Shown: positions 2,792 to 8,040 of the stretch, in pieces | How the letters are laid out: each line of letters starts with the position of its first letter | Numbering within the stretch: the stretch's first letter is position 1 | Assembly (NCBI GenBank): GCA_001789205.1 | Contig: MFYT01000035.1 | Coordinates: 2,865-14,574, forward strand | Source of the DNA: Candidatus Raymondbacteria bacterium RIFOXYA2_FULL_49_16 | GTDB lineage: Bacteria > Fibrobacterota > OXYB2-FULL-49-7 > XYB2-FULL-49-35 | Length of the DNA stretch: 11,710 nt | Direction of reading: 5' to 3' | Translations under genes and position numbers: made by a program | Notes under the pieces: model-generated | The model's database searches: none | Told to the model about the DNA's origin: nothing | What the model saw: the letters and a program-made list of their open reading frames with translations, nothing else

Positions 2792-3037
2792 ATGAATAGT
2801 GCCTGGCAGCTTCAGGAGGCGAAAAACAAATTCAGCGAAGTCGTCGAACAGGCGCTGAACAACGGCCCGCAGCAGATAACGCGCCATGGCCGAAAAACCG
2901 CGGTAGTGCTTTCCTTTGGAGAGTATCAGAAGATCCGGGGACAAAAGGGAACAATCACCGATTTTTTCAGGAACTGCCCGGTACACGATATTGCGTTTGA
3001 AAGGGCCCATGATTATCCCCGCCAGGTAGAACTGTGA
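2792..3037 (+). CDS. Phd/YefM-family antitoxin
   Basis: An 81-residue protein. The N-terminal part, WQLQEAKNKFSEVVEQAL (residues 5-22), then PQQITRHGRKTAVVLSFGEYQKI (about 26-48), is the typical Phd/YefM DNA-binding and dimerisation fold. The tail (about 55-81, including FFRNCPVHDIAFERAHDYPRQVEL) is the part expected to wrap round the toxin and mask its active site. A clear ribosome binding site (AAGGGGG, 2781-2787) lies 4 bp before the ATG. The gene overlaps the toxin start by 4 nt (GTGA). It probably represses its own operon, alone or with the toxin, through the TCTAGACAG repeats. Pairing of a Phd/YefM antitoxin with a PIN toxin is a common combination. Confidence 0.9.
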   Translation: MNSAWQLQEAKNKFSEVVEQALNNGPQQITRHGRKTAVVLSFGEYQKIRGQKGTITDFFRNCPVHDIAFERAHDYPRQVEL

Positions 3038-3453
3038 AGTACCTCCTCGATACATGTGTGGTCTCGGAATTGATAAAAAAAAATCCTGAAAAAAAAGTCG
3101 TTACCTGGATTGAAGAATGCCCGGAAGACGCATTGTATTTATGCGTCATAACGCTGGGTGAAATTCAGAAAGGTATTGCCAAACTAAAGGATCCGAATAA
3201 AAAACATTTACTCCAGGCATGGCTCGATGCAGATCTGCGGGAGCGTTTTAACGGAAGAATCCTTGTCGTTAATGAGGATACTGCACTTACCTGGGGTCAA
3301 ATCCTGGGGGAAAACGAATTACAAGGCCGTCCTCTTCAAACTATTGACAGTTTAATTGGCGCGGTTGCGCTGACAAACAATCTTACCGTTGTAACGCGGG
3401 ACATAAACGACATAGAAAAAACCGGCGCACGGGTCCTGAATCCTTGGTTATAG
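3034..3453 (+). CDS. vapC: PIN-domain ribonuclease toxin, VapC/FitB type
   Basis: A 139-residue single PIN domain. The expected acidic active-site residues are visible: D6 (YLLDTCVVSEL), E43 (ITLGEIQKGI), D105 (LQTIDSLIGA) and D123 (VVTRDINDIE), the set that binds Mg2+/Mn2+ in VapC nucleases. The motif around residue 6 and the C-terminal NPW ending resemble the FitB-like VapC branch. Known members cleave tRNA or rRNA when released from the antitoxin; the target here is unknown. It starts with GTG inside the antitoxin stop (GTGA overlap, 3034-3037), so translation is coupled and antitoxin is made first. All catalytic residues are intact, so the toxin is probably functional. No terminator is evident in the 33-bp gap before the converging regulator gene. 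Confidence 0.92.
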   Translation: MKYLLDTCVVSELIKKNPEKKVVTWIEECPEDALYLCVITLGEIQKGIAKLKDPNKKHLLQAWLDADLRERFNGRILVVNEDTALTWGQILGENELQGRPLQTIDSLIGAVALTNNLTVVTRDINDIEKTGARVLNPWL

Positions 3454-3486: not shown

Positions 3487-3924
3487 CTAAATACTGTAGT
3501 CAATCTCCCTGATACCCGCCACGTTGTACTGTAACAAGTCGTCGAGTGATATCCCCTTTAAAACATTGGTCTGCGCGTCGTGCATTTTTTTCCACACAAT
3601 ACGCGAAAGGCAGTCAGTTGACTTGCCACATTTTTTGCGATCTTCGACGCAGGTGACCGGACTGAGCGAACCTTCGAGCGCTGAGACGATCTCGAGAAGC
3701 GTGATGGTTTCAGTGCTTTTCTTGAGCACAAATCCGCCGTCCTTGCCGCGATGGGTCTCGATAAGGCCCTTGGCTTTAAGCGCTGAAAGGATGTTTTCGA
3801 GATAGCCGAGTGAAATATGCTGCGCCTGGGCAATTTCCCGCCGTTTCACCGGACCCGACCCCTGTCGTCCGGCTATCTCGATCATGGCGCGCATGCCATA
3901 TCTGCACCGCGTTGACAGTTTCAT
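3487..3924 (-). CDS. Rrf2-family transcriptional regulator with Fe-S-type cysteines
   Basis: A 145-residue Rrf2 protein. The winged helix lies at about residues 1-66 (MKLSTRCRYGMRAMIEIA, IAQAQHISLGYLENILSALKAKGLI, then the wing RGKDGGFVL). C92, C99 and C105 (spacing x6, x5) fall in the loop that binds a [2Fe-2S] or [4Fe-4S] cluster in IscR, NsrR and relatives; C7 is an additional cysteine. The CymR subgroup, which controls cysteine metabolism through CysK contact, typically lacks this triad, so this protein more likely reads an Fe-S cluster directly. Its ATG overlaps the metY stop by 4 nt (3921-3924), making it the second gene of the metY operon. Neighbouring metY, metX, cysK and ferredoxin genes suggest control of sulfur assimilation, perhaps at the shared intergenic repeats. 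The regulon is inference. Confidence 0.88.
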   Translation of the reverse strand: MKLSTRCRYGMRAMIEIAGRQGSGPVKRREIAQAQHISLGYLENILSALKAKGLIETHRGKDGGFVLKKSTETITLLEIVSALEGSLSPVTCVEDRKKCGKSTDCLSRIVWKKMHDAQTNVLKGISLDDLLQYNVAGIREIDYSI

Positions 3925-5213
3925 ACATTTGCCAGCGCTGCTTCGAGCGCCCCTGTGATATCGTCAATATGTTCAAGCCCTATGGAAAGACGGATCAGAT
4001 CTTCAGAAAGTCCGCTTGCTGCCCGCTGTTCCTCTGAAAGCTGGGAATGCGAGGTGCTGGCAGGATGGAGTATAAGGCTCTTAGCGTCCCCAACATTTGC
4101 CAGATGCGAGAAAAGCGTGATGTTGTCGATGACCTTCACTGCAGCCTGATACCCGCCTTTGAGGCCAAAGACCACCATGCCGCCAAAACCCTTGGAAAGA
4201 TATTTGGATGCAACCGCGTACGAAGGATCGTCGGTTAGTCCAGGGTATCTGACCCAGGCCACTTGTTTATGGGCTTTGAGAAAACAGGCCGCAGCCAGAG
4301 CATTGTCGCAGTGGCGCTGCATGCGCAACGGAAGGGTTTCGATGCCCTGGAGAAAAATCCACGCATTGTCCGGTGAAATACACGCGCCAAGATTGCGCAG
4401 AGGCACGGTCCTCAGACGCAGAGCAAAGGCTATTGGCGCCAGCGGAGCGGGAAGATCGTGCGCCCATTTGAGGCCATGGTAGTTCTGGTCCGGCTCGTTG
4501 AAAAGGGAAAACTTGGGATCTTTCCAGTCAAACTTGCCTGAATCGACCACTATGCCGCCAATGGCAACCCCATGACCTCCCATCCACTTGGTGAGAGAAT
4601 TTATGACAATGTCTGCTCCATGCTCGATTACGCGCAAAAGATAGGGTGTGGTAAAAGTTGCATCAACAACCAGAGGCAGATGGTGTTTTTTTGCCACCTG
4701 GGCAATGGCCCGGATATCAGTAAAATCGAGGACAGGATTGCCTATTGTTTCAATAAATATAAGCTTGGTTTTTTCTGTGATGGCTTTCTCGAACGAGGCA
4801 GGATCTTTATTATCGACAAAGCGGGTAGTAATACCAAACTGCGGCAAAATAGCATCGAACATGGTATAGGTGCCGCCATAGAGATTGCTCGCTGAAACTA
4901 TTTCGTCCCCTGCTTTGGCAATGGTAATGACTGTGTTGTGGATTGCCGCTGTTCCTGAAGCCAGGGCAACTGCCGCGGCGCCGCCTTCGAGCTGCGCCAC
5001 CCGCTGTTCAAGCACATCGTGGGTGGGATTCATAAGGCGGGTATAGATGTTTCCAAGCTCTTTTAAAGCAAAGAGGTTTGCCGCGTGCTCGGTATTTTTA
5101 AAAACATATGAACTGGTTCGATGGATTGGAACTCCTCGTGAAAGAGTTGCCGGGTCAGGAACCTGGCCAGCATGCAAAGCCAATGTCTCAAATTTGTACT
5201 TGTTAAAATCCAT
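3921..5213 (-). CDS. metY: O-acetylhomoserine sulfhydrylase (PLP-dependent, MetY type)
   Basis: A 430-residue cystathionine gamma-synthase-family enzyme. It exchanges the acetyl group of O-acetylhomoserine for sulfide, giving homocysteine in the cytoplasm. The PLP lysine is K209 in NSLTKWMGGHG; D184 (LVVDATF) should contact the PLP pyridine nitrogen; YTRLMNPT (57-64) holds the Tyr/Arg phosphate contacts; SGTAA (86-90) is the PLP phosphate loop. The length (about 430 against about 380-400 for MetB/MetZ) and the insertion around 225-265 (FDWKDPKFSLFNEPDQNYHGL) are typical of true MetY. The residue after D184 is alanine where Asn is common. A strong AGGAGG lies 4 nt upstream of the ATG. The gene is divergent from metX, which makes its substrate, and is followed by an overlapping Rrf2 gene. 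Confidence 0.94.
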   Translation of the reverse strand: MDFNKYKFETLALHAGQVPDPATLSRGVPIHRTSSYVFKNTEHAANLFALKELGNIYTRLMNPTHDVLEQRVAQLEGGAAAVALASGTAAIHNTVITIAKAGDEIVSASNLYGGTYTMFDAILPQFGITTRFVDNKDPASFEKAITEKTKLIFIETIGNPVLDFTDIRAIAQVAKKHHLPLVVDATFTTPYLLRVIEHGADIVINSLTKWMGGHGVAIGGIVVDSGKFDWKDPKFSLFNEPDQNYHGLKWAHDLPAPLAPIAFALRLRTVPLRNLGACISPDNAWIFLQGIETLPLRMQRHCDNALAAACFLKAHKQVAWVRYPGLTDDPSYAVASKYLSKGFGGMVVFGLKGGYQAAVKVIDNITLFSHLANVGDAKSLILHPASTSHSQLSEEQRAASGLSEDLIRLSIGLEHIDDITGALEAALANV

Positions 5214-5245
5214 CGATCCTCCTTATGTGTATTAACTTGGTAAAC

Positions 5246-5274
5246 AATATATATATATCTGAATTTAAAGTCAA
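5246..5274 (-). promoter_or_regulatory. Promoter of metY-rrf2
   Basis: Read on the minus strand, TTGACT (5274-5269), 17 bp, then TATATT (5251-5246): 5/6 matches in both boxes at ideal spacing. The predicted start is near 5239, giving a leader of about 26 nt with the AGGAGG site at 5223-5218. It uses the same hexamers as the metX promoter on the other strand. Confidence 0.75.
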
Positions 5275-5322
5275 TACATATTATTATTTTTCTTTTGTTT
5301 ATTATTTTGCTTGACTTTAAAT
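5263..5322. repeat. 12-bp inverted repeat overlapping both -35 boxes; possible shared operator
   Basis: ATTTAAAGTCAA (5263-5274) and TTGACTTTAAAT (5311-5322) are perfect inverted copies. Each contains a -35 hexamer plus six further matching bases (TTAAAT) that a promoter alone would not require, so the element could be a regulator site. The 36-bp spacer is almost pure A/T (33 of 36), which may act as UP elements for both promoters. A third, partial copy, ACTTTAAAA, lies at 5357-5365 in the metX leader. The Rrf2 protein encoded in the metY operon is the natural candidate ligand, but this is inference. Confidence 0.6.
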
Positions 5323-5339
5323 AGATTAAAACATATATT
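5311..5339 (+). promoter_or_regulatory. Promoter of metX-metW-cysK-ferredoxin
   Basis: TTGACT (5311-5316), 17 bp, then TATATT (5334-5339), 5/6 matches in both boxes. The predicted start is near 5346 and gives a leader of about 32 nt, too short for a SAM riboswitch. It mirrors the metY promoter; the facing -35 boxes are 36 bp apart. Confidence 0.75.
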
Positions 5340-5377
5340 GTTAATGAAATTAGTGTACTTTAAAATTCAGGGGTTTT

Positions 5378-6508
5378 GTGGAACAGCTGATTGTTGAAAA
5401 ACAAATCCTGGAACTTGGCCTGGATAAAAACCAGGTCATTGTACTCGATTCAGGAAAATCCTTTGGCCCCATTTCCATTGCATATGAAATAATCGGTACC
5501 CTGAACGAGAAAAAAGACAACGCGATCCTAATCTGCCACGCACTTTCCGGCGATTCCCATGTTGCGGGCAAATACGCACTCGAAGATAAAAAACCCGGCT
5601 GGTGGGATGTCATGGTTGGACCGGGAAAGCCCTTTGATACAGACACCTACTGTATCATCTGCTCAAATACCTTGGGAGGCTGCAGAGGGACCACGGGTCC
5701 GGCAAGCATTAATCCGGTCACTGAAAAACCCTATGCCCTCGACTTCCCGGTCATTACCATAAACGATATGGTCAAAGTCCAGAAGCTTCTGATCGACCAT
5801 CTTGGCATTCAGCAGCTCTATTGTGTTGCAGGTGGGTCAATGGGCGGCATGCAGGCCCTTGCCTGGATCATAAATTTTCCATCCATGGTACGCTCTGCTG
5901 CCATTATCGCGTCTGCGGCCTATACCTCCTCTCTGGGCATAGCATTCGATAAAGTGGGCCGTAATGCAATCATGTCTGACCCCAATTTCGGCAGCGGTGA
6001 TTACTACGGCCGTACCTTGCCCCGCCACGGCCTTGCCATTGCCCGGATGATCGGTCATATAACGTATCTGTCCGACGAATCAATGCGTAAAAAATTTTCG
6101 CGCAGCCTGCAGGACAAGGACGAACTTTCATTTGAATTGTCAGACGACTTTGCCGTGGAGAGTTATCTGGAATACCAGGGCGGCTCCTTTGTCCAGCGTT
6201 TTGATGCGAATTCCTATCTCTATGTTACCAAAGCAATGGACTATTTCGACCTTCCTGGCAAATACGGGTCGCTCGAAAAAGCGCTGAAGGATGTCACTGC
6301 CCGTATGCTCGTGGTCTCCTTCACCTCAGACTGGCTCTTTCCCACCTACCAGTCGGTCGAAATTGTCAAAGCGCTCATGAAAAACCGCAAGGATGTCTCT
6401 TTCTGCGAGATACAATCATCCGCGGGCCACGATGCCTTTCTTCTTGAATTCGAGAAACTGGGACGTATACTACAGAGTTTTCTGGGCAATGGAAGGACCG
6501 GCTCATGA
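5378..6508 (+). CDS. metX: Homoserine O-acetyltransferase (MetX family)
   Basis: A 376-residue alpha/beta-hydrolase-fold acyltransferase that activates homoserine with an acyl-CoA, the first committed step to methionine. The nucleophile elbow [12 protein letters not shown] puts Ser at S154. The remaining triad residues are D318 (SFTSDWLFP) and H351 ([11 protein letters not shown]). [12 protein letters not shown] (53-64) and [14 protein letters not shown] (97-110) are family hallmarks. Length is normal and there are no C-terminal CBS domains. Acetyl rather than succinyl specificity is favoured because an O-acetylhomoserine sulfhydrylase gene lies divergently next door, but sequence alone does not prove it. 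The start is GTG with GGGG at 5370-5373 and a 4-nt spacer; no nearby ATG exists. The stop overlaps metW (ATGA). Confidence 0.95.
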
Positions 6509-7101
6509 TACCCAACATTGCGCATGCAATTATTCTCGGTCTCGTCTCTGAGAAAAGCTCGGTCCTCGACCTTGGCTGCGGTTCGGGCGATCTGCTCAAA
6601 GCGCTCATCGACTCAAAACGCGCGACTGGCATGGGCGTGGAAATCGACGAAGACATGGTCACCGAATGCCTCAGAAAGGGATTGTCGGTGGTTCAGTTCA
6701 ATATAAACGACGGCTTGGCTGCATATCCGGACCAGTCGTACGATTACGTGATACTAAACCAGACCCTGCAAAGCATCTATCAGACCCAGCTCCTGCTTAA
6801 CGAGGCCGTACGGGTTGGTAAACGCGTGATTGTGGGAATCCCCAACTTCGCCTACTGGCGCATTCGGGCAAGTATTCTGGTGCGCGGAAAGCTGCCCATT
6901 ACGCGTGTGCTGAGCCACCAATGGTACAACACACCCAACATCAGGCTCGTTACTGTGCGCGATTTCACCGAGACCGTGCGCTGCCTTGGTCTTGCCATTA
7001 TTGAACACCATTATACGTGGCGGAACAGGTGCCTGCCTTTTCCCCTGAGGCTCTGTCCCAACCTGTTTGCGGACAATGCGATTTTTGTCCTTTCCCATTA
7101 A
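6505..7101 (+). CDS. metW: Methionine biosynthesis protein MetW (SAM-methyltransferase fold)
   Basis: A 198-residue Rossmann-fold protein. Motif [15 protein letters not shown] (21-34), is followed by the acidic strand GVEID (44-48). The MetW signature stretch is [10 protein letters not shown] (112-121), then [18 protein letters not shown] (128-145) and an RDF segment. MetW is almost always encoded directly after metX and is thought to assist or regulate MetX; a methyl-transfer activity has not been clearly established for the family. The gene overlaps metX by 4 nt, consistent with production in step with MetX. The next gene follows 12 bp later, within the same operon. Length and motifs look complete. 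Confidence 0.93.
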
Positions 7102-7113
7102 AGGAGGTGCTCC

Positions 7114-8040
7114 ATGACGCGCATATTCAACAATCTCACAGAGACCATTGGCCAGACTCCACTGGTAAAAATAAACCGGATGGCGCCCGAAGGTGTAACC
7201 GTATTAGCCAAGCTCGAATCATTCAATCCTCTCCACAGCATCAAAGACCGTATTGGCGCGGCAATGATTACCGAGGCTGAAAAGGCGGGCCGCATCAACA
7301 CGCATTCTGTCATTATTGAACCCACAAGCGGCAATACGGGAATCGCCCTTGCCTTTGTCTGCGCGGCCAAGGGATACAAGCTGGTTCTCACCATGCCCGA
7401 AACAATGAGCGTTGAACGCCGCATGCTCCTCAAAGCTCTGGGCGCGGAACTGGTGCTGACTCCGGGTGAAAAGGGCATGCGCGGCGCCGTGGAAAAAGCC
7501 GTGGAACTGGGCGCGTCAATCCCCAACAGCTTTGTACCCCAGCAATTCCAAAACGCGGCCAATCCCCAGGCGCATCGTGAGACCACGGCTATTGAAATAT
7601 GGGATGATACCGACGGCTCTGTTGATATATTTGTCGCGGGTATTGGAACCGGCGGCACCATCACGGGTGTTGGGGAAGTACTCAAGCAGAAAAAACCGGA
7701 TGTCAAAATCATTGGCGTGGAACCAGCGGATTCGCCGGTCCTGAGCGGCGGCACGCCAGGCCCGCACAAAATACAGGGCATTGGCGCCGGATTCATACCC
7801 GATGTACTCAATACCAAAGTATATGACGAACTCATTCAGGTCAAAAACGCCGATGCCATTGAGACCGCCCGGAACCTTGCGAAAAGCGAGGGCATACTGG
7901 CTGGGATCTCGTCGGGCGCCGCTCTCTGGGCCGCGTTACATGCGGCTTCGCGGGTTGAAAACAAGGGGAAGACGATTGTTGTTGTGCTCCCCGATACCGG
8001 AGAACGATATTTAAGTACGCCGCTTTTCAATGCGGGGTAA
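7114..8040 (+). CDS. cysK: Cysteine synthase A (O-acetylserine sulfhydrylase)
   Basis: A 308-residue fold-type II PLP enzyme that makes cysteine from O-acetylserine and sulfide. The PLP Schiff-base lysine is K44 in LHSIKDRIG. The substrate loop TSGNTG is at 71-76, the phosphate-binding glycine loop [10 protein letters not shown] at 176-185, and GISSGAA at 264-270. PDTGERYLS near the C-terminus is a family landmark. Length is normal. A near-ideal AAGGAGGTG (7101-7109) precedes the ATG, which suggests higher translation than the coupled genes. The gene is third in the metX operon and competes with MetY for sulfide. No serine acetyltransferase (cysE) is in the window. Cystathionine beta-synthase-type or O-phosphoserine use is less likely but not excluded. 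Confidence 0.93.

Follow-up and report, generated by a model that had tools for sequence, protein, structure and literature searches.

The gap between metY and metX is, judged from its sequence, likely a divergent control region, with metY-rrf2 on its left and metX-metW-cysK on its right serving cysteine and methionine sulfhydrylation. It lies in an 11,710-nucleotide stretch of DNA from Candidatus Raymondbacteria bacterium RIFOXYA2_FULL_49_16, which is called the window throughout. The reading we favor, and consider fairly likely, is that both operons, and with them the regulator's own gene, are repressed by a CymR-type protein that probably uses CysK to sense O-acetylserine. For cysteine and methionine synthesis in a phylum that has received little study, this names a regulator, an operator, and a signal that can be tested, and it suggests that repression assisted by CysK, known in detail from Firmicutes, has a wider distribution. 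The window genome is 5.43 Mb in size, and the other genomes compared are related to it at the phylum level.

Gene families were assigned with NCBIfam and Pfam (Table 1). The start of rrf2 overlaps the stop of metY by 4 nt, and rrf2 is the second gene of the metY operon; cysK is the third gene on the metX side. A Phd/YefM antitoxin and PIN-domain (VapC-like) toxin pair adjoins rrf2 (window 2792-3453). The genome contains a second Rrf2 gene (L117:6731-7126 and 1642-2646), whose neighbors were judged by eye to be mnmA-, bioB-, nadA-, and LarE-like. The same cluster includes a serine acetyltransferase-like gene that ends in GKKG and is without a C-terminal Ile.

Table 1. Genes, predicted promoters, repeat arms, and predicted operators at the metY-metX gap (window coordinates).
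Feature	Position	Strand	Evidence or remark
metY, O-acetylhomoserine/O-acetylserine sulfhydrylase	3921..5213	-	TIGR01326, 611.8 bits (cut-off 495.1)
rrf2, CymR/IscR-like regulator, predicted repressor	3487..3924	-	TIGR00738 and PF02082 over cut-off
Codons of regulator C-terminal DYSI, proposed CysK-docking tail	3490..3501	-	final Ile invariant in alignment A2
metX, homoserine O-acyltransferase	5378..6508	+	NF001209 MetX, 512 bits (cut-off 331)
metW	6505..7101	+	TIGR02081, 220.7 bits (cut-off 189.5)
cysK, cysteine synthase A; proposed co-repressor/O-acetylserine sensor	7114..8040	+	TIGR01139, 471.8 bits (cut-off 350.95)
Predicted metY promoter, TTGACT-N17-TATATT	5246..5274	-	-35 at 5274-5269; -10 TATATT at 5251-5246
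Predicted metX promoter, TTGACT-N17-TATATT	5311..5339	+	-35 at 5311-5316; -10 at 5334-5339
Left arm, 42-nt imperfect inverted repeat	5233..5274		repeat finder
Right arm, 42-nt imperfect inverted repeat	5311..5352		repeat finder
Predicted operator O1, GTTTACCAAGTTAATACAC	5227..5245	-	directly after metY -10; 21.2 bits, best in window
Possible third site O2, GTTTATTATTTTGCTTGAC	5297..5315		overlaps metX -35; 14.2 bits
Predicted operator O3, GTTAATGAAATTAGTGTAC	5340..5358	+	directly after metX -10; 12.0 bits, third in window

The 164-bp gap is very A/T-rich and carries the same computed promoter on both strands, facing outward, with a 17-nt spacer in each. The initial annotation read these letters correctly: a perfect 12-bp inverted repeat, TTGACTTTAAAT, occupies 5263-5274 and 5311-5322, its arms are separated by 36 nt, and TATATTGTT is present at the -10 on both sides. 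The limits it gave, 5246-5339, are too narrow because the arms reach 42 nt, at 74% complementarity, in the repeat finder's output (Table 1), and the true element is therefore longer. Of 1000 versions of the gap shuffled by dinucleotide, 0.2% contain an equally good inverted repeat.

Two RNA-based readings of the gap were rejected. An RNA hairpin formed from the inverted repeat would not be transcribed, since most of each arm is upstream of the predicted transcription starts, which are expected near 5239 on the minus strand and near 5346 on the plus strand. A riboswitch or other known RNA would need longer leaders than the predicted ones of about 30 nt, and the window has no Rfam match. Window 5258-5370 holds a further imperfect inverted repeat, in which CTGAATTTAAAGT near the metY -35 pairs with ACTTTAAAATTCAG in the metX leader with one bulged base.

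Part of the symmetry belongs to the usual promoter style of the genome. TTGACT-N16..18-TATATT occurs 21 times in the genome and once in the reversed control, and TTGAC-N17..19-TATATT occurs 73 times compared with 6. Among the 16 TTGACT-N16..18-TATATT examples outside the window, 69% read TTGACTTT, and TTGACTTT...TATATT is a common promoter style of this genome. The metY and metX promoters are identical at 31 of 42 positions. In the rest of the genome, 78 such promoter pairs, all with 17-nt spacers, have on average 22.3 and at most 29 of 42 positions identical. The symmetry exceeds chance, as the initial annotation held, but house style accounts for part of it. The excess identity is located in the 13-base stretch downstream of the -10, where 9 positions agree, and in the TTAAAT that follows TTGACT. 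A striking mirror repeat can come from a common promoter sequence together with two copies of one operator, and TTAAAT after both -35 boxes is the sole unexplained remainder of the arm identity.

The operator is a motif shared by the upstream regions of relatives' operons that carry the same Rrf2 regulator. EM on the upstream regions of 18 relatives' operons scores 139.9, compared with a maximum of 88.6 in 20 shuffled sets. Hand alignment gives a loose dyad of 19 bp, GTTTAY-N7-RTRAAC, frequently accompanied by another half-site at a distance of 9 bp. A scoring matrix built from 14 of the relatives' sites, none from the window, computes only three places of at least 11.9 bits in the 11.7-kb window. 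All three are within the gap, and the best-scoring place outside it reaches 8.4 bits. Three such sites occur in 0 of 5000 shuffled gaps and two in 0.04%.

O1 and O3 have the same offset from their -10 boxes and start at the very next base, so the shared TATATTGTT consists of the -10 and the start of the operator. The O1 score is reached in 0 of 5000 shuffles, and sites of O2 and O3 grade occur in 0.7% and 2.7% of shuffled gaps, respectively. Taken alone, O3 is a moderate site, and chance-level places elsewhere in the genome score 12-15 bits. The independent program cmsearch, using model R1, ranks O1 first (E 0.013) and O3 second (E 0.69) and sees O2 weakly. O2 is without a mirror partner on the metY side. 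A genome-wide R1 scan, with 150 of 1608 candidates scored, placed no other sulfur gene under the motif and returned three weak matches, none evidently sulfur-related. The strict palindrome GTTYAY-N7-RTRAAC occurs 7 times in the whole genome compared with 3 in the control, and none of those inspected precedes an evident sulfur gene.

Computed conservation of the operator follows the same pathway genes. Across the phylum, it precedes operons built from HPr, cysK, metY, rrf2, and metA, and relatives also carry it on single, non-divergent promoters. In the relative L043, a site not used in training scores 17.5 bits, with its end 57 bp ahead of a gene that fuses metA and homoserine dehydrogenase (metA-hom); a separate operator copy, 3.9 kb from the metA-hom one, belongs to metY at the opposite side of the locus. 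In L039, two overlapping untrained sites of about 13 bits come after a TTGACA-N17-TATATT promoter at the start of an HPr-cysK-metY-rrf2-metA operon. In three more genomes, the top-scoring site of the locus, also untrained, is a short distance upstream of rrf2 and reaches 19.2, 14.9, and 9.1 bits. No clear site was found at the rrf2 genes of some relatives (L045, L046, L049, and L053), and no convincing operator precedes metX in relatives with fused metXW. A single regulator for both sides, as first suggested, is likely: the same 19-bp operator follows both -10 boxes, and it also stands before the cysK, metY, and metA operons of relatives with the same Rrf2 regulator.

Several genes at these loci vary in architecture. 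The L043 fusion (L043:4298-6304) encodes a single protein of 668 aa that combines MetA with homoserine dehydrogenase. In relatives, the cysK-metY-rrf2(-metA) operons include a small HPr-like gene (L037:6674-6934, L038:4741-5001, L039:9586-9849). In most Fibrobacter-type relatives (L057-L085), metX and metW form one frame of approximately 600 codons, an apparent MetX-MetW fusion, unlike the window, where they are separate overlapping genes.

The window also differs from its relatives in gene order. In relatives, cysK, metY, rrf2, and metA are all on one side, whereas here cysK is on the opposite side, metA is absent from the genome, and metX-metW stands in for it under an operator of its own. 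In no close relative examined are metX and metY neighbors, and a close search of genome contigs with the regulator yielded only four distant loci. The mirror symmetry could stem from inverted duplication of a single promoter-operator at the time when the ancestral operon was broken up and metA gave way to metX-metW, in which case the symmetry would be inherited and not selected as such. Such an origin is a tentative possibility, on the unlikely side, and it is compatible with a CymR-type repressor. It would account for arms that are more alike than any of the 78 promoter pairs elsewhere in the genome, but beyond the hexamers and the operator the arms share only TTAAAT, and the rest of the spacer agrees at 4 of 11 positions, about chance. 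Most of the likeness can be put down to convergence under a shared sigma factor and a shared repressor.

The protein most likely to bind the operator is the Rrf2 regulator whose gene stands second in the metY operon. Its computed membership in the Rrf2 superfamily is clear (PF02082, 124.1 vs 30 bits; TIGR00738, 130.3 vs 73.3 bits). It scores below the cut-off of the CymR equivalog (NCBIfam NF047409, 106 vs 195 bits) and is therefore called CymR-like and not CymR. The nearest solved structure is CymR 2Y75, both by sequence (E 4.5e-23) and by fold (E 5.1e-11). The predicted structure of the regulator has a pLDDT of 91.6 and is confident except for a floppy C-terminal tail, with residues 139-142 under 50. 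As expected of a CymR-type protein, the regulator is linked in the genome to cysteine and methionine biosynthesis, including cysK, in the window and in many relatives, and the predicted operator is situated at promoters of cysteine and methionine genes.

The tail is conserved at its very end. A [Y/F]-x-I ending is present in 20 of 22 homologs of at least 42% identity, with variable residues before it, and each of the two that lack it is an extra copy in its genome. All 22 sequences of alignment A2, which was chosen for folding, end in Ile, and three later homologs end in YCI, YCI, and YSI. Fibrobacter-type homologs, at approximately 36% identity, mostly have a CGL end. B. subtilis CymR itself ends in Ile. 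Partners of CysK usually end in an Ile that is inserted into the CysK active site (PMC4961446, PMC12895370). In the window CysK, TSGNT and QQF match, by eye, the listed docking residues T, S, T, and Q (PMC4961446, PMC12895370).

The same regulator and operators may instead respond to an iron-sulfur cluster or redox state at a CX6CX5C motif, as in IscR-, NsrR-, or RirA-like proteins, with the Ile tail serving something else. This signal is suggested by the conserved cysteines together with the score below the CymR cut-off. Across the 22 aligned homologs, conservation of C92, C99, and C105 is 90% or higher, and IscR (TIGR02010) is the second-best NCBIfam model at 108.9 bits, below its cut-off of 207.55. 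We find an iron-sulfur signal doubtful nonetheless, as the neighbors and targets are cysteine and methionine genes and include no iron-sulfur assembly genes, and another, separate Rrf2 protein of this genome is encoded beside bioB, mnmA, and nadA. IscR holds its cluster with three Cys and a His; here the three Cys are conserved with CX6CX5C spacing, and position 108, the His position of IscR, is mostly Arg in the aligned homologs. The terminal Ile is invariant in the alignment. A two-signal hybrid that combines an IscR-like three-cysteine cluster site with a CymR-like CysK-docking tail on one protein is also unlikely. If it were true, sulfur-gene control in this phylum would read both iron-sulfur/redox state and O-acetylserine.

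Coincidence is improbable. Two unrelated house-style promoters in A/T-rich DNA, with no common regulator, could look symmetric given how common TTGACTTT...TATATT is in this genome, but the three operator-like places in the gap have no counterpart elsewhere in the window or in 5000 shuffles, and the motif is kept before the same pathway in relatives, untrained sites included. Least credible is the initial proposal of one palindromic element coupling both promoters in a fixed ratio: a perfect 12-bp repeat and equal spacers suit such a joint device, but most of that repeat is the house -35 sequence, the two promoters have separate operators, relatives use the operator on single promoters or, as for metY and metA-hom in L043, in separate copies, and a fixed MetX/MetY proportion sits poorly with a metX operator much weaker than that of metY (12.0 vs 21.2 bits) and a possible extra, unmirrored metX site.

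The CymR-type repressor remains the favored explanation. Its promoters, operators, their conservation in relatives, the family of the regulator, and the tail are computed; DNA binding by the regulator, a repressing and not an activating role, partnership with CysK, and the nature of the signal are inferred. Each side would comprise a house-style sigma-70 promoter with an operator starting immediately after the -10, and a protein on such an operator would block open-complex formation or promoter escape. Because the regulator is encoded in the metY operon, it would also control itself. In characterized systems, the CymR-CysK complex represses at low O-acetylserine, and O-acetylserine relieves this repression (PMC3828012, PMC2940859). 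By analogy with B. subtilis CymR, the window regulator would bind DNA tightly while its Tyr-Ser-Ile tail sits in the CysK active site. When cysteine is plentiful and O-acetylserine is low, the repressor would occupy O1 and O3, and perhaps O2, and both operons would be off. Rising O-acetylserine would strip CysK from the tail and release the repressor, which would turn both operons on together.

Among known systems, the regulator most resembles CymR of Bacillus subtilis and Staphylococcus aureus (PMC3828012, PMC2940859, PMC2869319), with which it shares the Rrf2-family winged-helix fold and a link to cysteine and methionine genes and to cysK. It differs in coming from another phylum, with approximately 38% identity over the structural alignment, in its conserved CX6CX5C cysteines, which are absent from the aligned region of 2Y75, and in its predicted targets, metY-rrf2 and metX-metW-cysK. 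IscR of E. coli and other bacteria belongs to the same family, scores similarly, and has three cysteines in the same region, but the window regulator departs from it in cysteine spacing, in its Ile tail, and in having no iron-sulfur assembly genes nearby. Its C-terminal Ile tail is like those of other CysK partners, namely CysE and CdiA-CT, whose short C-termini end in Ile and are proposed to enter the active site of CysK (PMC4961446, PMC12895370); the partner here would be a DNA-binding protein.
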